Part shown: positions 819 to 8,983 of the stretch, one piece after another
Numbering within the stretch: position 1 is the first letter of the stretch
Layout: every line of letters starts with the position of its first letter
Origin: a bacterium
GTDB lineage: Bacteria; ARS69
Assembly: GCA_025774865.1 (NCBI GenBank)
Contig: JALGZO010000366.1
Span: 1 to 8,983 of the forward strand
Direction of reading: 5' to 3'
Length of the DNA stretch: 8,983 bases
Position numbers and translations under genes: made by a program
Notes under the pieces: model-generated
Databases searched by the model: none
Told to the model about the DNA's origin: nothing
Seen by the model: the letters and a program-made list of their open reading frames with translations, nothing else

Positions 819-847
819 ACTATAGAAAGTGGCCCGTCACGTGTCAA
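819..847 (-). promoter_or_regulatory. Sigma70-type promoter for the lipoprotein gene
   Basis: On the minus strand, TTGACA (847-842, perfect -35) is followed by exactly 17 bases (841-825) and TATAGT (824-819, one mismatch to TATAAT). Transcription would be expected to begin near 812, giving a 5' untranslated leader of about 45 bases before the GTG at 767. The -35 box overlaps the TGA stop (846-844) of the preceding glycosyltransferase gene. Such a full match is unlikely by chance in DNA this rich in GC, and it sits in the largest intergenic gap of the window. It implies that the lipoprotein can be transcribed independently of the upstream operon. A CACGTG palindrome (838-843) touches the -35 region. 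Confidence 0.75.
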
Positions 848-2280
848 GGCTCCGGCATGAGACGGGCCGGCAACATGCCCACGGTTCCGTTCGGATGCAC
901 GAGCACCGCCAGGCGATCCGGTTCCGGCAGTCCCTCGGGCAGCTCTCCCTCCTTCGCGTAGGGGCGACCCCTCCAGTACAACCGGACCATGGAGTCGAAT
1001 CCGTTGCGGAAGACCCAAGCCGAGCGGTGGTCGTCGGGGACACCTACGAACTCGATGGGCGTCCGCGCATCGCGCGACTCCAGCGCGGGCCACCGGCCCG
1101 TGATCTCCCGGGTCCAGGAGGCGGCGGTGATCCAGTCCGCTTGTCGATCGAGGCTGCCCCCCACGTGGAGGCCGAGCGCCGCGAGCACCCCGGCCCGGGC
1201 GATCCACCGCCGGCGCGACCTCTCCCCCCAGCGCAGGACCGCCTTCGCCGCGAGCCCCCAGGCGAGACACGCTCCGAACGACGGCAGGTAGAGGAACCGT
1301 TCGCCGGAGCCCGGGAGGGCGAGAAACGGTGTCGCCGCGAGGAGGATCCAGAGGAGCGACCCGCGGACGTGGCGATCGCCTCGGCACCAGAGCCCGACGA
1401 GCGCCGCGACCCCCAGCGCGATGGGAGCCGCGAGCCCCGGACGTTGCGTCAGGGCTCCGAGGAACGGCCCGATCCCCCGCGCCCCCTCCCACACGTTCTG
1501 GACTTCCCAGTAGCGCAGCGGCACGAATCCCCCGAGCGCGAAGAACGCGACGTTCTTCACGATATTGGGGCCGACCGCGAACTGGTACGGGGAGGCGTCG
1601 CCGCCGCGCTCGATGCCCGTGGTCACCGTGAAGTATGCCGCCAGCAAGATCACGAACGGCAGAGCCTCGCGCGTGGTCGGTCGGCGCGGAGTGGCCGCTC
1701 CTTCGACCGGCCACCACCACGTCGTGAGCAGCCAGAGCGGAACGAATGCGATCGCGGTCTCCTTGGATCCCAGCGCCGCCGCGAATGCGAGCACGGCGAG
1801 AACCCGATTCAGCGTCGACCGAGTACGACGAGCCTGACGGATCCGGATGAGCGCAAAGAAGACGAAGATCGTCACCCAGACCGAAGTGACGCCCGACGCC
1901 CACACGACCGGCTCCACGTGGATGAAGTGTAGCGCGAAGAAGAGCCCCGCCCAACGCGCGGCGCGTGCGTGCTTGGCACCCAGGAGGCTCGTCGCCAGAA
2001 CGACGGCGAGGCAGGACGCCACCGCGTGCAGGAGCACCCCCACGAGATTCCATACGAGAACTCGATCGCCCGCGAACCCCCGCAGAATGCCGAAGTGGAG
2101 ACGCGCCACGGGACGATAGAAGTCGATGTCTTTCGTCGAGAAGAAGCCGAGTGCGTCCGCCAGGGTCTGAAAGCCATTCCGTTCGAAGTTCAGGAAATCG
2201 TCCGACACGAAGAAGTGATTGAGCGACGGAGCGAAGAGGACGAGAGAGGCCAGGACGACCAGCAGGGCCGCTCGCTTCAT
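844..2280 (-). CDS. Polytopic GT-C glycosyltransferase, TMTC/PMT-like, without TPR repeats
   Basis: A 478-residue integral membrane protein that probably transfers a sugar from a polyprenyl-phosphate donor on the outer face of the cytoplasmic membrane. The first hydrophobic helix (about 4-20) leads into a loop with Asp27-Asp28 (VSDDF), where GT-C enzymes keep catalytic Asp. Further landmarks fit the bacterial relatives of TMTC O-mannosyltransferases: YRP at 55-57, the FALHFIHVEPVVW block (about 115-127), GSKE (171-174) and ERFLYLP (327-333). Many hydrophobic helices span about 1-365, followed by a soluble tail of about 110 residues. TMTC proteins carry TPR repeats after the membrane part; none are visible here. 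The ATG at 2280 overlaps the upstream stop (ATGA) and has GGAGG 5 bases before it. It is the last gene of the coupled glycan operon. Acceptor and sugar are unknown; it could glycosylate protein or lipid-linked glycan. Family call is firm at the GT-C level, moderate for the TMTC subgroup. Confidence 0.82.
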   Translation of the reverse strand: MKRAALLVVLASLVLFAPSLNHFFVSDDFLNFERNGFQTLADALGFFSTKDIDFYRPVARLHFGILRGFAGDRVLVWNLVGVLLHAVASCLAVVLATSLLGAKHARAARWAGLFFALHFIHVEPVVWASGVTSVWVTIFVFFALIRIRQARRTRSTLNRVLAVLAFAAALGSKETAIAFVPLWLLTTWWWPVEGAATPRRPTTREALPFVILLAAYFTVTTGIERGGDASPYQFAVGPNIVKNVAFFALGGFVPLRYWEVQNVWEGARGIGPFLGALTQRPGLAAPIALGVAALVGLWCRGDRHVRGSLLWILLAATPFLALPGSGERFLYLPSFGACLAWGLAAKAVLRWGERSRRRWIARAGVLAALGLHVGGSLDRQADWITAASWTREITGRWPALESRDARTPIEFVGVPDDHRSAWVFRNGFDSMVRLYWRGRPYAKEGELPEGLPEPDRLAVLVHPNGTVGMLPARLMPEP

Positions 2281-3236
2281 CGCGGCCTCCGGAGAGCCTG
2301 ACGGTACCCGTCGAGGTACGCGGCCGCTCGCACGAAGTCGTAGAGCGGATCGAGCCGGACCCTCCGCGGCAGCCTCTCCGCCAAAGCGGCGGCGAGCCCC
2401 CAGAGCGAGCGCCGGCAGGAGGCGGCGACCGCCAGTTTGCGAAGGATCACCGCGACCCCGTCTCGCGAGTCGATCGGTTCCGCCAGATCGAGGTGCAGCT
2501 CCCGCCGAGCGCGGGGCGCCTTCCGGACGAGAATGGGGAGCATCGTCTCACCGTAGCGGCGCAATCGGTCCGCCGTCGCCGACGGCGACGCGAGGTCGAG
2601 GTGGTACGACACGGCGCCCTTCGCGTGCCGGAAGTCGCCCCCGTTCGCGGCGAGCCGATAGCCCATTTCGGTGTCCTCCCCGCCGTATTCGTAGAACTCC
2701 TCGTCGAAGCCCCCCGCTTGCGACAGAAGCGGCCCGGCCACCGAGCAGTTACCGGTGAGGAAGTAGCGAGGCGGAATCTCCTCTCCCGCCCCGACCTTCT
2801 GGACGCCGCGGGAATCGATGTACTCCACGAACCCGTTGCGGGGAATCTCGGGCGCGGTGAGGATCTCGCCGAGGACGACCGCTTCGGCGCCGCCGTGCCC
2901 GTCCGCGTGAGCGTCGAGAAAGCCCGGAACGACTTCCATGTCGCCGTCGAGGAACACGATGACGTCACCCTTCGCCGCCGTGATACCGGAGTTCCGCGCC
3001 GCGGCGCGGCCGCGCGAGCGGCTGTGGTGAACGACCCGCACGTCGCACGCCAGGTCGAGCAAGCGCGCGTATTCGGTCAAGCCCGGATCGGCCCCGTCGT
3101 CGATCACGATCACCTCGAACGGCGGCGCGTCCTGCTGCCGATCGAGGCTCTTCAGAGTTCGCTCCAGGAGCTCCCGCCGACCGTGTGTCGGAATGACGAC
3201 CGACATCAGCCGGGGGCGCGCGCCGGCGCCGCTCAC
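2277..3236 (-). CDS. Family 2 (GT-A) glycosyltransferase
   Basis: A 319-residue, probably cytoplasmic inverting glycosyltransferase that would add a nucleotide-activated sugar to a glycan or lipid-linked acceptor. Visible landmarks in order: SVVIPTHGR (12-20), the nucleotide-binding VIDDG with Asp46-Asp47, AARNSGI (79-85), the metal-binding DGD at 97-99, FLTGNCSV (159-166) and the late acceptor-side motif GGFDEEF...YGGED (175-188) containing the likely catalytic base Asp188. These are the full set expected of an active GT2. Residues about 210-319 form an Arg-rich, mostly helical C-terminal extension, possibly for membrane association. The GTG at 3236 is preferred because it overlaps the flippase stop (GTGA); an internal ATG at 3206 (Met11) is a workable alternative that keeps the whole fold. 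The donor sugar cannot be told from sequence. Confidence 0.9.
   Translation of the reverse strand: MSGAGARPRLMSVVIPTHGRRELLERTLKSLDRQQDAPPFEVIVIDDGADPGLTEYARLLDLACDVRVVHHSRSRGRAAARNSGITAAKGDVIVFLDGDMEVVPGFLDAHADGHGGAEAVVLGEILTAPEIPRNGFVEYIDSRGVQKVGAGEEIPPRYFLTGNCSVAGPLLSQAGGFDEEFYEYGGEDTEMGYRLAANGGDFRHAKGAVSYHLDLASPSATADRLRRYGETMLPILVRKAPRARRELHLDLAEPIDSRDGVAVILRKLAVAASCRRSLWGLAAALAERLPRRVRLDPLYDFVRAAAYLDGYRQALRRPR
2286..2290 (-). promoter_or_regulatory. Ribosome binding site inside the upstream gene, for the GT-C gene
   Basis: GGAGG lies 5 bases before the ATG at 2280, within the last codons of the upstream family 2 glycosyltransferase. Together with the ATGA overlap it supports both the start choice and translational coupling. 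Confidence 0.8.
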
Positions 3237-4702
3237 GCGTCGGATCTCCGCCCGAGCTCACGCACGACGCCCGGAAGGCGGCGAAGCTCCTCGCCGGACA
3301 GGACCCGTCCGGAAACGAGGAGCACGGGAAAGACCAGAACGAGCGCTCCGCGCAGTACGAGCCGGGGGGCAAACGGAAGCGCCCCCAAGGCGTCGGCGGC
3401 GACCACGAGTCCGGCCGCGACCCCGACCAGGCGCGCGAGCTTCCCCAGCTCGAATGGAATCCGGAACTGCCGGTTCGATTCCCGGAGCACGAGTCCCGAC
3501 AGGACGGCGTTCGTCACGACGGTCGCGACCGCGGCTCCGACCTCGCGCCAGAGCGGAATCATGAGTACGTTCAACGCCGTGTTGACGACGGCCGCCAGCA
3601 GAACGAGGAGAGGCAGCCGACGCGTGTCTCCGGCGACCTGCAGACCCGTGCCGAACAGCTGCGACACCGCGTACAAGCACGTGGCGAGCGCCAGCAGAGG
3701 CACGATGCGCTCCGACGTGTCGTAGGCTTCCGTCCCGACGACGGCGAGGATCTCCCGGCGGAACACGGCAATCAGGAGCGCGCCACCGACCACGACGACG
3801 ATCGCGTGACGAAAGACGCGGGCGAGCTCTTCGGGCCCGCCATCGCTCCGCGCCCGCGCGAACGCAAAGGACGGCCATGCCAGCCAGAACGACGTGACGA
3901 GCAGGGCAATCGGGAGACAGAGCTCCGAGCCGAACTGGTACACACCGACCGACGAAAGGTCCGCGAGCAGACGCAGGAGGTAGGTGTCGAGGTAGCTGAG
4001 AGCCCACAGACCGAGCGCCGACGGCACGAGCGGCAAGCCGAACCGGAGAACCCGACGAAGGCGCGATCCCGCCCCGGTGAGGTCCAGCCCCGACCGGGCC
4101 AGGTGCCGCGGAACGAAGATCGCGGCCATCAAGGCGGGGCCGGCCAGATTGCCGAGAAGAAACCCGGTCACCCCCATCTCGAAGCCGAAGACGAGGATCA
4201 GCGTCGCCACGAAGGAGACGATGCCCTTCGCCCCGAGGATCAGCGCGAATGAACGGGAACGGTCGTGCGCGCGGAGGTGACCGAGGAACAGCTGGAGCTG
4301 CGCGCCGAAGAACGCCGCCCCGACTGCGATCACCACAAGCAGGCCGTGGTCGGGCGTACCGAACAGCGCGCGGGAGACGAGGTCGCGCCCGAGCAGAAAC
4401 GGGGCGGCGAGCATCACGTCGAAGGCGGGCAGAGCCAGGAACAGCGTAGATCGAAGTCGCACCGGCTCCGCGGGCTCCTCCGTGTCGTGGTGGTAGCGAA
4501 TGAGCGCGGTGACGAGTCCGAGCTCGAACACGACGTGCAGCAGATTCGTCGCCGCGAGGAGCAACGCGAGGACGCCGAACTCGTCCGTCGACAGGCGCCG
4601 GGCGATGACCGGGAGGAGGGCCGCCCGCGTGACCCCTCCCACCACCGACCCCGTCGCGTACGCCAGCGTGTGGCGCGCGATCCTCGTGGTGGATCCGGTC
4701 AC
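3233..4702 (-). CDS. Wzx-like polysaccharide/oligosaccharide flippase (MOP superfamily)
   Basis: A 489-residue, highly hydrophobic protein with roughly 12-14 membrane helices, expected to move a polyprenyl-diphosphate-linked glycan from the cytoplasmic to the outer face of the inner membrane. The N-terminus is typical of the RfbX/Wzx family: a short basic head, a first helix (about 12-33), then LSTDEFGVLALLLA (37-50) and ELGLVTALIRY (60-70), which matches the family's first two helices and their link. Length is within the usual range. The GTG at 4702 is chosen because it overlaps the upstream stop (GTGA) and a GGTGG lies 5 bases before it. A longer version from a TTG at 4738 would add 12 residues rich in Gly and Arg and is less likely. 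It sits between two glycosyltransferases, as expected for a glycan assembly operon. Which glycan it carries is not determinable here. Confidence 0.88.
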   Translation of the reverse strand: MTGSTTRIARHTLAYATGSVVGGVTRAALLPVIARRLSTDEFGVLALLLAATNLLHVVFELGLVTALIRYHHDTEEPAEPVRLRSTLFLALPAFDVMLAAPFLLGRDLVSRALFGTPDHGLLVVIAVGAAFFGAQLQLFLGHLRAHDRSRSFALILGAKGIVSFVATLILVFGFEMGVTGFLLGNLAGPALMAAIFVPRHLARSGLDLTGAGSRLRRVLRFGLPLVPSALGLWALSYLDTYLLRLLADLSSVGVYQFGSELCLPIALLVTSFWLAWPSFAFARARSDGGPEELARVFRHAIVVVVGGALLIAVFRREILAVVGTEAYDTSERIVPLLALATCLYAVSQLFGTGLQVAGDTRRLPLLVLLAAVVNTALNVLMIPLWREVGAAVATVVTNAVLSGLVLRESNRQFRIPFELGKLARLVGVAAGLVVAADALGALPFAPRLVLRGALVLVFPVLLVSGRVLSGEELRRLPGVVRELGRRSDA

Positions 4703-5817
4703 GCGCCCGCCACCCAACCGCCCTCGGAGTCCAACCAACCGAGCTCCCGATACTTCTGGTAGATCCCTTCAACGATTCGATCCGCTCCGTGGACCCGCTC
4801 CACCCACTCCCGGCCACGTCGGGCGTGCGCGGCGAGCACGGCGGGGTTCCGCGCGAGCTCAGCCAGCCTCTCCTCGAGCGTGTCGCTGGTCGCGAGCAGG
4901 AACGGGTGATCACCCAGGAAGTCGCGGTACGAAGGCGTCATCGAAGTCAGGGCCGGCACGCCCATGGAGAGTGCCTCCAGCGAGTTCATTCCGTAGCCGG
5001 TGGTCACTTCGTCCGGGTCGACCTGATCGATCAGCAGATTCGCTCGCCGCTTCCGGCGGATCGCCTCTTCGTGTCTCACGCCTTCGACGAGATCAAACTC
5101 GAGGTCGATGTGTCGCCGCAGCCGTTCGATCGTTTCGATCACGCGTTCGGTTCCCTTGATGGACCGGTTCCGCGGCGCGTGCACGATCCGCAGCTTGTCG
5201 GTCGGTGGCTCCCGAAACTCGTATTTCGTGACGTCGAACGGAATGAAGAAGTAGATCAGATCGGGATCGAGCGCCAGGTGATCCCACTCGCAAGTGAGAT
5301 TCAGATCCGAGAGCTCACGCACCGCCGGGATCACACCCCGGTCTCGCAGGTCGGTCCCCAGGTAGTAGCAGACAATCCGCTTGCCGCGCGTCCTCATCTG
5401 ACGGAGGAACCGCGCGTCCCGGTAGAAGCCGACGCCCGACTCCAGGTGATACACGTCGAATTCGCCGAGTTGATGCTCGCGGATCGCGCGCTCGATCCGG
5501 CGCTTCCACAACACCTCCTCGCGCCATCGAAAGAACGCCGCCTCCCAGCGACTCCGCGGCCGCCACTCGGGCACCCCTTCGGTGGAGTGCTCGTACTTCG
5601 CCCGGCCGCCGTGGAACCGGTTCATGACGCCCTTCATCGCCAAGTGCAGCGACGTTCCCTTCAACAACGGGAGGTGAAGACAGATGTCCTCCTCGAGCTC
5701 GTTCACGCATTCGCAAAGGGTCACCAGACGGGCCTCGTGTCCATGCCGCCGGTGCGCGTCGACGAACGCGTTCGCCATGCCAACCCAGTTCTGATCGCAG
5801 ATGTGGAGAATGCGCAC
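4699..5817 (-). CDS. GT4-type (GT-B) glycosyltransferase
   Basis: A 372-residue, probably cytoplasmic retaining glycosyltransferase. The N-terminal Rossmann half begins directly at the start codon (MRILHICDQNWVGMANAF), with the glycine turn and the HRRHGHEARLVTL helix-strand. The donor-binding half contains IVHAPRNRSIKGT (211-223), VEGVRHEEAI (244-253), LLIDQV (261-266) and GYGMNSLEALSMGVP (274-288). Glu281 corresponds to the second Glu of the E-x7-E motif; the first Glu position is Thr273. The HAP..R.IKGT and IDQ...YG..EALS.G combination recalls GT4 enzymes of capsule and O-antigen clusters. The GTG at 5817 has no clear Shine-Dalgarno sequence, but the first ATG (Met14) would delete the first strand of the fold, so GTG is preferred. 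It follows the amidohydrolase by 13 bases and overlaps the flippase by 4 bases. Donor and acceptor are unknown. Confidence 0.86.
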   Translation of the reverse strand: MRILHICDQNWVGMANAFVDAHRRHGHEARLVTLCECVNELEEDICLHLPLLKGTSLHLAMKGVMNRFHGGRAKYEHSTEGVPEWRPRSRWEAAFFRWREEVLWKRRIERAIREHQLGEFDVYHLESGVGFYRDARFLRQMRTRGKRIVCYYLGTDLRDRGVIPAVRELSDLNLTCEWDHLALDPDLIYFFIPFDVTKYEFREPPTDKLRIVHAPRNRSIKGTERVIETIERLRRHIDLEFDLVEGVRHEEAIRRKRRANLLIDQVDPDEVTTGYGMNSLEALSMGVPALTSMTPSYRDFLGDHPFLLATSDTLEERLAELARNPAVLAAHARRGREWVERVHGADRIVEGIYQKYRELGWLDSEGGWVAGA

Positions 5818-5830
5818 GGTTCGGCGCCCG

Positions 5831-6592
5831 TCACCCGGCCCGACGGCGACGGATCAGACGGAGGAGATTCTCTCCGAGAACGAGCCGCCGTTCCTCGTCG
5901 CTCGGCCCGGCGCCCTCGAAGACCTGCAGGTACGCGGCCGGCCACCCGAGGGGAAAGTCGCTTCCGAAGAGGATCTTCTCGGGGCCGAGCCGATCCAAGG
6001 CGAGACGGAGGGAGTAGTACTCGCGAATCGACTCGGTACCGAGGTACGCGTTCGGCAGGCGGCGCCGGGCCATTTCCTCGGAGCATTCCTGCTGCAGCGT
6101 CGGGAGGTCGCCGCCCAGGTGCGCGACGATGATGGCCGCATCAGGATGTCGCTCTGCCACCGTGAGGGGGAATCTCCAGCTCGCCATCTCCTGCCACCGG
6201 CCGGTGTGGATGATGACGGGCAGACGCCTGGCCTCCGCGAACTCGTAGAATGGCCGCCACCCGTCGTCGTCCGCGCGGAGCCGCTCGAGCGACGGGTGGA
6301 CCTTGAGTCCCGCGAGTCGACTCGAGTGTTCTTCCAGAAACTCGAGCGTTCGATCCGAGTGATGCGGGTCGATCCACGCGAAGAAGTGAAAGCCGTCACC
6401 GTCGGAAGCGAGCGAGCGAGCCAGGCCTTCGTTGTCGCCGGCATCCGTCGGCATGAGTACCGCGCCGTCGATCCCCGAGCGCCGCAGCGCGTCGCGGATC
6501 TCGGCGATCCCGGCGCCCGGCCATCCCTCCCGCTCGGGGCGCCACTGGCCCCAGTGAACGTGACCGTCGACGATGACGGGACGCTTTGTCAT
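5831..6592 (-). CDS. Metal-dependent amidohydrolase (Amidohydrolase_2, ACMSD-like TIM barrel)
   Basis: A 253-residue soluble enzyme with the complete metal site of the Amidohydrolase_2 family. The first strand carries HVH (His11, His13); GLKVHP gives Lys97 and His99; VIIHTGR gives His129; IVAHLGGD gives His158; and LFGSDFP gives Asp212. In ACMSD and its relatives the HxH pair, the middle His and the late Asp bind metal while the His of the AHLGG motif is catalytic, so this protein is probably active as a hydrolase or non-oxidative decarboxylase. It is compact compared with many relatives (about 280-330 residues). The ATG at 6592 overlaps the upstream stop as ATGA; an upstream in-frame start at 6706 would add 38 Arg-rich residues that lie within the propeller gene and is rejected. 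No signal peptide is present, so it should act in the cytoplasm. The substrate is unknown, and its place in a glycan operon is unusual. Confidence 0.87.
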   Translation of the reverse strand: MTKRPVIVDGHVHWGQWRPEREGWPGAGIAEIRDALRRSGIDGAVLMPTDAGDNEGLARSLASDGDGFHFFAWIDPHHSDRTLEFLEEHSSRLAGLKVHPSLERLRADDDGWRPFYEFAEARRLPVIIHTGRWQEMASWRFPLTVAERHPDAAIIVAHLGGDLPTLQQECSEEMARRRLPNAYLGTESIREYYSLRLALDRLGPEKILFGSDFPLGWPAAYLQVFEGAGPSDEERRLVLGENLLRLIRRRRAG

Positions 6593-6900
6593 CGGATGAC
6601 CGCGACTTTCCCTTCGTACTTGCCCCGTGTGCCGTCCGACGACTTTGCGACGACCAGGTAGACCCCGGACTCCACGAGCGCGTCCCGAGCGTTCGTGCCG
6701 TTCCACGTCTTGGGATCGGGGCCGGGGATCACCTTCTCATGGACGAGCTCGCCGGCGGCGCTGTAGATGCGGATCTCCGTCGTTTCGTCCGGCGGGATCC
6801 CCTCGAAGGTCACGATCGACGCGCGCTGGTTCAGGAGCTTGGGATCGTCTCCCGCATACTCCAGGGCCCAGGGATTCGGGTACGCTTCGAGGGTCGACTC
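6589..6900 (-). other. C-terminal sorting/FlgD-Ig-like domain of the propeller protein
   Basis: These final 103 residues follow a Gly-rich linker (GLTGGAGP) and start with the YPNPW element typical of such tails. The fold would be an Ig-like sandwich ending in a basic, hydrophobic last strand (KVAVIR). In Bacteroidota, type A C-terminal domains direct proteins through the type IX secretion system and are cleaved and replaced by a lipopolysaccharide anchor. Whether this organism has that system is not shown in the window. Confidence 0.65.
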
Positions 6901-8983
6901 CGTGGGGCCGGCGCCTCCGGTCAGACCGATCCTGGCGATCCCTCCGTTCGCCGTTCCGACGTACACACTCTTCGATCGCTCGTCGACGTGAAGTCCCGTG
7001 ATCGACTGGTCGGGTAGCGGGCAACCCGCGAGCTGATCGAACCACGTCCAGGTCACTTGATCCCTGGACACCCGCACGAGTCCCGAGCTCTCGGTTCCGA
7101 TCCAGATGCTCTCGTCCCAGTCCAGCTTGGAGACGCGATACGGCAAGGGATTGCGGCCGCCCAACTGGCTCGAGGTGGGCTCGACCAGGTCCCAGTCCGT
7201 GAACCGGACGTTGGTGTTGTCGATCTGCCCGACGACCAGGCCCTTCCCTCCCGCCAGCCAGATCTGATCCGAAGAGTCGATCGAAACCGCGAGGACCTCG
7301 CCGATGTCCTCGATCTCGTTCGCGACGTTGAACTCCGTGTACTCGTCGTCGGATTGGTCCGCGATCGTCCCGTTCGTGTCTATGACGTAGACCTTGCCGA
7401 TGATCGGCCCTTCACTGAACGTCGTCACCCAGACCCGATTCTGCGAGTCGAACGCCAGGTCCCGGAGCGCGGTCGTGGCGTTGGCGAAGATGATCTCGAA
7501 GGGAAAGTCCGTGATCTGGCGGCTCGGCCACTCGATGACCGAGAGCCCCGGGTCGACAGCCTGTCCGTAGCAGACCCAGAGATTGTCCCCCGCGTCGAGC
7601 CCCATCGACCAGATGTTGCGCCCCAGTGTGGCTTTGCCCCCCGATGCCGTGGGGAAGTAGGCCTCCATCGAATCGGGCGGCAGGTAACGGTTCAGGCCAC
7701 CGAATTGCGCGCTGACGCGCGACCCGAACCAGATCGAACCGTCCGGCCAGACCTCGACTTCCGTCACGTTCTCGTGGAGCACGTCGGGCGGCGTCAGGGC
7801 GCTCCAGTCGGTCCCGTCGAACAGGCCGACGCCGGCGGACCTCGCGGCGCCGGTCTGATCCCCCGTGCCGAAGTAGAGAATGCCGTCTTGATCGATGTCC
7901 AGGTCCGCAACGCGCGGCCAGTGAGGCCCGAGCGGAGGCGGACAGATCCAGTCCAGGCCATCGCGTACCGAGAACGAGCGCACCCGGGTCCCCAGCACGA
8001 TCTTGCCGTCATCGCTGACCCCGACCTCCCGGGGAGCGTAGAGCGTGTCCCCGGCGCAGTCCGAACGCGGTATCCGCAGAGTGGACGGTTGCGTGAGGTC
8101 GATCTCGTAGAGATCCCGGTCGAAGTCCGGGGACGGGGTCTCCGCGAGCACGTACAGCCGATCGCCGGTCCCGTAGAGATCCAGGATGTTCTGGCCGGAG
8201 AACTGCGCGATCGTATCCAGCACCGCTCCGTTCCACGCGTGGAGCCCGCCCCCGGTCCCGATCCACAGGACGTCGGGGCCGGGTTGACCGAGCGCGGGGG
8301 CGCGTACGAGCTTCTTGACGTTGTCGCTGACGAGGCCGCCGTCGGTTCGGCTGAGGACCTGGTCGAGCATGCCCGTGCCGTCGTCGCGCCGCCATAGACC
8401 TTGCCCGGCGGTGCCGATCCAAACCCCGCCGCTCTCGGTCAGGAGCTCCTGGCTCTTGGCCAGCGTGTTCGCGAATCCTTCGCGCTCGAAGACCCAGCGG
8501 TCCCCGTCGCGCCCGATCCGGACGATGACGAACCCACCCCCCTCGGGCAGACCCGTCGAGGGGGCGTAGCTGTCAGCCCCTGAAATCACGACCCGGTCGC
8601 AGGTCATGCTGCGTCCCTCGATGATGCAAGTCTCGGTCTGGCCGAGCGCGGCGGCGGCGATCACCTTGTCGCTGTAAAGCAGATCATCGAACGAGAAGAG
8701 ATTCCCGATGTGCCTCCCCTGACTGTCGAAGACCGACACTCCATCTTCGCGCGTCCCGACCCACACGTTGCCGAAGGCGTCGATCGTGAGACAGGTGAGG
8801 GTGGTCGACACGAGCCCCTCGGCGTCCGAGATCTTGGACTGGGCGGGTTTCGGGTTCCGGATGGTCGAAAGATCGATGCGGATCACACCGCCGATCGCCG
8901 CGATCCAGGCCTCCTGCCCTCGGACGGCCACGTCGACGATCTCTCCGGTCGCCGCGTACAACGTCCAGTCGTCCGAGGCACAT
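6589..8983 (-). CDS. Exported beta-propeller protein with FlgD/Por-type C-terminal domain (5' end outside window)
   Basis: The frame is open to the right edge (797 residues visible), so the true N-terminus and any signal peptide are missing. The visible part is built of repeated blades ending in W-[IVL]-G-T-like strands, including VWVGT, VWIGT, VLWIGT, ILYFGT, SIWFGS, NLWVCY, RVWVTT, QIWLAG, SIWIGT and SVYVGT. The first block, with GLVSTTLTCLTIDAFGNVWVGT, matches the two-component regulator propeller repeat (Reg_prop) pattern. The last 103 residues (6900-6589) form a separate domain: AYPNPW, a TFEGIPPDETTEIRIYSAAGE strand pair, TWNGTNARD, SGVYLVVAKS and a terminal GKVAVIR strand. This is the FlgD-Ig/Por secretion-type sorting domain seen at the C-terminus of exported proteins in FCB-type bacteria. 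There is no kinase domain, so this is probably a surface or secreted binding protein rather than a sensor kinase. Its stop overlaps the amidohydrolase start. The ligand is unknown. Confidence 0.85.
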   Translation of the reverse strand, partial: CASDDWTLYAATGEIVDVAVRGQEAWIAAIGGVIRIDLSTIRNPKPAQSKISDAEGLVSTTLTCLTIDAFGNVWVGTREDGVSVFDSQGRHIGNLFSFDDLLYSDKVIAAAALGQTETCIIEGRSMTCDRVVISGADSYAPSTGLPEGGGFVIVRIGRDGDRWVFEREGFANTLAKSQELLTESGGVWIGTAGQGLWRRDDGTGMLDQVLSRTDGGLVSDNVKKLVRAPALGQPGPDVLWIGTGGGLHAWNGAVLDTIAQFSGQNILDLYGTGDRLYVLAETPSPDFDRDLYEIDLTQPSTLRIPRSDCAGDTLYAPREVGVSDDGKIVLGTRVRSFSVRDGLDWICPPPLGPHWPRVADLDIDQDGILYFGTGDQTGAARSAGVGLFDGTDWSALTPPDVLHENVTEVEVWPDGSIWFGSRVSAQFGGLNRYLPPDSMEAYFPTASGGKATLGRNIWSMGLDAGDNLWVCYGQAVDPGLSVIEWPSRQITDFPFEIIFANATTALRDLAFDSQNRVWVTTFSEGPIIGKVYVIDTNGTIADQSDDEYTEFNVANEIEDIGEVLAVSIDSSDQIWLAGGKGLVVGQIDNTNVRFTDWDLVEPTSSQLGGRNPLPYRVSKLDWDESIWIGTESSGLVRVSRDQVTWTWFDQLAGCPLPDQSITGLHVDERSKSVYVGTANGGIARIGLTGGAGPTESTLEAYPNPWALEYAGDDPKLLNQRASIVTFEGIPPDETTEIRIYSAAGELVHEKVIPGPDPKTWNGTNARDALVESGVYLVVAKSSDGTRGKYEGKVAVIR

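Follow-up and report, generated by a model that had tools for sequence, protein, structure and literature searches.

The window analysed here is contig JALGZO010000366.1 in its entirety, 8,983 nucleotides long (contig C370 in our numbering), from the metagenome-assembled genome GCA_025774865.1 of the bacterial lineage ARS69 (4.7 Mb in 785 contigs, about 93% complete, 8% contaminated). It carries six co-directional minus-strand genes, which encode a surface-type beta-propeller protein, an amidohydrolase, two cytoplasmic glycosyltransferases (of types GT4 and GT2), a flippase and a polytopic membrane protein resembling GT-C glycosyltransferases. We propose, with a probability of about 0.6, that the propeller protein is the PorZ-type component of the type IX secretion system (T9SS) of this lineage and that PorZ handles a glycan produced by its operon; with the same confidence, this glycan would be the anchor that the sortase PorU joins to numerous exported proteins. 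The propeller is unlikely to be the cargo of its operon. The original prediction for this DNA, an operon that glycosylates or anchors the surface protein it encodes, explains the locus less well: the likeness to PorZ points to a protein that delivers glycan to the sortase for all cargo with sorting domains.

In the proposed pathway, the cytoplasmic glycosyltransferases would assemble a lipid-linked glycan, which the flippase would carry over the inner membrane and the GT-C enzymes would lengthen, using polyprenyl-phosphate sugars from GT2 enzymes encoded upstream. At the surface, the glycan would be bound by the PorZ-like propeller and presented to PorU, which would remove the sorting domain of the cargo and link the new carboxy-terminus to the glycan. 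The identity and chemistry of the glycan, its binding, its transfer to PorU, its attachment and the role of the amidohydrolase are what we infer in this scheme. Of the T9SS anchor glycans, the literature covered characterises those of Porphyromonas gingivalis and Tannerella forsythia only. A delivery protein encoded beside glycosyltransferases and a flippase would provide a defined gene list for surface anchoring in other T9SS phyla, and the GT4-type enzyme of the window, a member of a distinct family without a specific model (here called GT4b), would gain a proposed T9SS role.

The propeller protein resembles PorZ

In P. gingivalis, PorZ binds both anionic lipopolysaccharide (A-LPS) and PorU and delivers A-LPS to PorU, while its own carboxy-terminal domain (CTD) stays uncleaved (PMC8545088). 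The best family match of the window propeller is the NCBIfam model of PorZ (NF052228), with 117.9 bits and an E-value of 4.8e-34. Within the phylum, five genomes from five genera were compared, the window's genome included. In all five, the PorZ model scores the propeller of the locus highest (79-101 bits), the runner-up reaching about 35 bits through its sorting domain only; this propeller is the sole PorZ candidate in each genome, at about 93% completeness in the case of the window's own.

A profile of the five propellers matches the crystal structure of P. gingivalis PorZ (PDB entry 5m11) contiguously over the second propeller and the CTD, with an E-value of 1.5e-18. When the propellers are aligned by hhalign with the PorZ alignment of other lineages, the probability is 100 and the E-value 6.5e-57 over 682 columns (5-777 versus 27-734), and that PorZ alignment in turn matches 5m11 over the full length (E-value 1.1e-89). 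The AlphaFold model of the propeller is of moderate quality, with a pLDDT of 72 and a pTM of 0.61. Entry 5m11 ranks first for this model in both Foldseek (E-value 7.9e-24) and VIA (Z-score 30.6, 596 aligned residues); the structural match covers both propellers, residues 4-692, and the VIA alignment leaves out the CTD. In the CTD itself, FlgD_ig matches residues 731-783, CHU_C residues 733-792 and Por_Secre_tail residues 725-785, all under the curated cut-offs.

The window propeller thus has the architecture of PorZ, two beta-propellers and a C-terminal T9SS-type domain, with homology along its length. It shares with the P. gingivalis protein a signal peptide, the two propellers, a C-terminal Ig-like domain and a collinear full-length profile match, and it is the single clear candidate per genome beside PorU, PorV and SprA. 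It differs in an identity of only about 15% in the structural alignment, in a score below the NCBIfam cut-off, in its occurrence outside the Bacteroidota and in its location inside a glycan operon. We consider it very probably a PorZ-type protein, albeit a distant and divergent one: PorZ-like by homology while under the official cut-off, it may be expected from its sequence to work like PorZ without being a strict member by NF052228.

Predicted cleavage of the signal peptide leaves an amino-terminal Gln-Cys in the window propeller and in those of its relatives G001 and G002 (AMA/QC, AHG/QC and ARA/QC, respectively, the slash marking the cleavage site), which recalls the Q-rule of Bacteroidetes.

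Type IX secretion genes and conservation in the phylum

PorU is present in all five genomes of the phylum, as is PorV, which adjoins it, and SprA scores over its cut-off in four. Sorting domains of PorZ or PorU type number dozens per genome. At the genome level, SprA, PorU, PorV and type A sorting domains, the set by which a T9SS is recognised, were found, and translocon and sortase share a genome with the PorZ-like protein. Gemmatimonadetes have been listed among the phyla possibly having a T9SS (PMC11285876).

The gene order of the locus is identical in the five genomes as far as the contigs extend, up to the mraZ/mur cluster where that is covered. A horizontal cassette peculiar to one genome is ruled out, because this order is kept across five genera. 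That the propeller is tied to the glycan-assembly genes, as had been predicted, is strongly supported both by this conservation and by the PorZ-like propellers found in glycan loci of other phyla.

PorZ-like genes and glycan loci in other lineages

In a scan of 386 genomes with a strict threshold for PorZ, PorZ-like proteins were found in 29. In the G289 phylum, 59 of 60 genomes have the gene, almost always in single copy, and all 22 loci inspected have glycan genes after it, most often one FemAB/GNAT gene, two GT4 genes and a GT2 gene, with mraZ-rsmH-ftsI next where the stretch reaches that far. A large secreted-type gene on the opposite strand (S786) is conserved between GT2 and mraZ in this phylum (L158-L177).

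In the G356 phylum, PorZ is preceded, at a distance of a few genes, by GT4b, flippase and GT2 in the order of the window. When its neighbourhoods were counted with the window-locus proteins as the only queries, GT4b was present in 18 and the flippase in 19 of the 21 PorZ loci, and neither occurred in 20 arbitrarily chosen control regions; further neighbours are RmlA- and RmlB-like genes and a polysaccharide-export protein. Loci inside one phylum (G289 or G356) are not independent of each other. PorU was found in sampled genomes of both phyla; genome G120, an arbitrary addition to this check, counts as an unplanned negative only.

Two further genomes, G136 and G267, have the order GT2 fusion, PorZ, epimerase, DegT aminotransferase, FemAB, amidohydrolase and GT4b, with the flippase next in G136, and so reproduce the propeller-amidohydrolase-GT4-flippase set of the window. 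In G063 the order is lnt, PorZ, FemAB, GT-C, GT4b, flippase and GT2. The GT4b family is bimodal across the 386 genomes, with a strong member in 26, of which 16 also encode a PorZ-like protein (Fisher p 3e-14 by genome, about 1e-12 by family). It is conceivable, and we suggest it tentatively, that several phyla outside the Bacteroidota have a dedicated T9SS anchor-glycan operon, containing their own PorZ and a GT4-flippase-GT2 core, to which FemAB or amidohydrolase sugar-modifying enzymes are added. On this reading, the anchor of the entire secreted surface proteome, of a chemistry unlike that of P. gingivalis A-LPS, could be read from one locus. In the literature covered, which excludes subscription papers, we found no account of a PorZ gene lying within a glycan operon, and PMC8545088 and PMC5121618 do not speak of porZ as part of any operon.

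In many T9SS genomes GT4b adjoins or lies near a FemAB/GNAT gene even when PorZ is elsewhere (loci including L234-L237 and L241-L244). An alternative setting of PorZ is also conserved (L109, L112, L113, L116, L118 and L121), in which ribD-ribE-ribAB-ribH, or ribH alone, is followed by PorZ and usually recN.

Amidohydrolase and glycan chemistry

The amidohydrolase is found in all five genomes of the phylum, with 67-79% identity, its gene is also kept in the G136 and G267 loci, and its putative metal-binding residues are preserved throughout the lineages examined. Its assignment to a named enzyme was dropped, as the profile matches in the PDB are only to generic amidohydrolase/decarboxylase relatives. 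On a Myxococcota contig (L078:4866-5615), a 39% identical amidohydrolase is encoded beside a GT2 enzyme of the polyprenyl-phosphate type, with no propeller.

In P. gingivalis, the linking sugar requires an aminotransferase, the FemAB-related acyltransferase VimA and the deacetylase VimE (PMC7468200). The A-LPS/Wbp-Vim pathway of this bacterium (WbpA/B/E/D, VimA/E/F, WbaP and the PorS flippase) and the window locus have in common glycosyltransferases, a flippase and a gene resembling Gfo/Idh sugar dehydrogenases. The likeness goes further in the G136 and G267 loci, which contain a DegT aminotransferase and an acyltransferase of the FemAB type, the family of VimA (PMC7468200). Since the amidohydrolase gene directly follows the FemAB gene in both, the enzyme could act as a non-homologous VimE, perhaps by removing an acyl group from a sugar, the activity proposed for VimE. 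That GT4b might correspond to VimF is offered as an idea only.

Weighing of the proposed role

Several observations weigh against a PorZ-type role for the propeller and an anchor-glycan role for its operon. The NF052228 score is well short of the curated cut-off of 260 bits, and for this reason strict membership of the PorZ equivalog is not claimed; its value may be too high for these lineages, because PorZ-like genes of other T9SS genomes also score 75-230 bits, while one Bacteroidota-type copy scores 682. The Foldseek margin of 5m11 over other double propellers is modest, and carbohydrate-sensing kinases with double propellers fit the fold almost equally well. The complete linking-sugar set (WbpA/B/E/D, VimA and VimE) was not found in the window's locus, to which the search was confined: no homolog of WbpA, WbpE, WbpD, VimA or VimE was recognised there, the amidohydrolase of the locus belongs to another superfamily, and the sole gene of linking-sugar type is UDP-GlcNAc 3-dehydrogenase-like and below cut-off. 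A GT2 fusion encoded upstream (L005:191-2275), consisting of GT2, a membrane region, CoA_binding_3 and a Bac_transf domain without its amino-terminal half, is doubtful as the initiating phosphoglycosyl transferase, its Bac_transf match spanning only positions 95-175 of the 179 in the profile; the same truncation is present in G002 and G136.

The association of PorZ with glycan genes also has its limits. Because T9SS lineages share ancestry, the co-occurrence statistic of GT4b and PorZ is inflated. PorZ lies by riboflavin genes and/or recN in six loci and by recO in one, without glycan genes, so adjacency is not required; conversely, GT4b is located beside FemAB without PorZ in several genomes. 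The linkage of PorZ to glycan genes is frequent, not obligatory. Glycan clusters lacking the propeller, which the original prediction had named as evidence against it, were looked for with a mixed outcome: GT4 homologs without an adjacent propeller occur in many genomes, while co-occurrence in the same genome is far above chance.

Among the alternatives, the one that fares best, although we judge it unlikely, is that the product of the operon is a general surface polysaccharide (O-antigen or exopolysaccharide) and that the PorZ-like gene is there merely through the clustering of envelope genes near dcw and lnt. The locus does adjoin the mraZ-mur cluster, lnt, PorZ, glycosyltransferases and mraZ follow one another in the G289 phylum, and in the G356 phylum Wza- and Wzc-like genes follow. 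The window also resembles Wzx-dependent loci of the exopolysaccharide type in its GT4, GT2 and Wzx genes, the GT2 being EpsD-like, but no Wzy or complete initiating enzyme was recognised in the window locus and a PorZ-like gene is included. Against a general polysaccharide, the GT4b-flippase-GT2 trio is located near PorZ in separate lineages with differing surroundings, and GT4b and PorZ co-occur even when far apart in the genome.

Less probable still is that the propeller is ordinary T9SS cargo and that the glycan is dedicated to decorating or anchoring this one protein, as might be thought from its signal peptide, its C-terminal FlgD/Por-type domain and its translational linkage to the glycan genes. 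The match of the propeller to PorZ runs along its length, no other protein in any of the five genomes comes near it as a PorZ match, and PorZ of P. gingivalis acts in delivery, retaining its CTD, and is not cargo (PMC8545088, PMC5121618). A one-protein system is also less economical, because dozens of other CTD proteins per genome need an anchor.

That the propeller is a carbohydrate sensor or a structural surface protein unrelated to T9SS function is very improbable: the ectodomains of the hybrid two-component sensors BT3049 and BT4663, with two Reg_prop propellers and a C-terminal beta domain, are close fold matches, and sensor protein 4a2l even scores better than 5m11 with the profile of the five propellers, yet these sensors are kinase-linked and membrane-bound, whereas the propeller has no transmembrane or kinase part and ends in a T9SS-type domain, and the 4a2l match is confined to scattered short blades where that to PorZ is contiguous and includes the CTD.

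Gene organisation of the window and its surroundings

The features of the window are listed in Table 1. From the propeller to the GT-C gene the junctions are -4, +13, -4, -4 and -4 bases, in agreement with the 4-base overlaps and single 13-base gap described originally. Of the operon limits given then, 844-8983, the first is sound: the operon probably ends at 844, because a strong promoter-like site, the sole one within the window, sits between the GT-C gene and the lipoprotein-like gene that follows. This site is the probable start of the next transcription unit, comprising the lipoprotein-like gene and then the mraZ/rsmH/ftsI/mur cluster. Position 8983, in contrast, is only the end of the contig, and the run of genes continues upstream. 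The GT-C-like protein has no matches in Pfam or NCBIfam and is conserved at 50-59% in four relatives.

Table 1. Features of the window
Feature	Position	Strand	Basis and remarks
PorZ-like two-propeller protein with C-terminal T9SS-type domain	8983-6589	minus	Pfam Reg_prop/FlgD-like; NCBIfam PorZ; 5' end beyond the window
C-terminal FlgD/Por-type beta-sandwich domain of the propeller	6592..6825 (start approximate)	minus	Pfam and NCBIfam
Amidohydrolase-2 family enzyme	6592-5831	minus	PF04909 (Amidohydro_2), E-value 2.4e-22; putative metal ligands intact
GT4-type glycosyltransferase, distinct family (GT4b)	5817-4699	minus	Weak Glyco_trans_1_2 and Glycos_transf_1 matches
Wzx/MOP-type flippase	4702-3233	minus	Polysacc_synt, E-value 5e-18
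GT2 glycosyltransferase	3236-2277	minus	Glycos_transf_2, E-value 1.2e-24; EpsD-like match under cut-off
Polytopic GT-C-like membrane protein	2280-844	minus	Inferred from sequence character and homologs
Promoter-like site, 3' of the last operon gene	847-819	minus	11/12 consensus bases, 0.5 expected by chance

The ends of the contig share 114 identical bases with contigs C754 and C63, and the three contigs joined span 39.8 kb. An assembly artefact at the join is rejected, because an unbroken 118 kb contig of the relative G002 has the identical order. In the joined sequence, the propeller gene starts outside the window with a TTG codon at the equivalent of position 9060, preceded by GAGGAG and in a 4-base overlap with the stop of the gene before it, and the encoded amino-terminus is a signal peptide. 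The six window genes form the terminal part of a run of about 19 genes, with about 16 kb more upstream of the propeller. This upstream part encodes, in order, a sulfatase-like protein, GT4, GT2, a small GT2 of the polyprenyl-phosphate type, two GT-C/tetratricopeptide repeat (TPR) proteins, a DUF2304 protein, a third GT-C/TPR protein, GT2, a Gfo/Idh dehydrogenase, two GT2 enzymes and the GT2 fused to the truncated sugar-phosphotransferase domain. Downstream of the operon, the lipoprotein-like gene is followed by mraZ, rsmH, ftsI and mur genes. This lipoprotein-like gene, which has no Pfam or NCBIfam matches, occupies positions 767-1 of the window and runs on into L006; it has a lipobox (...AAGC) and is conserved at 36-46% in relatives.

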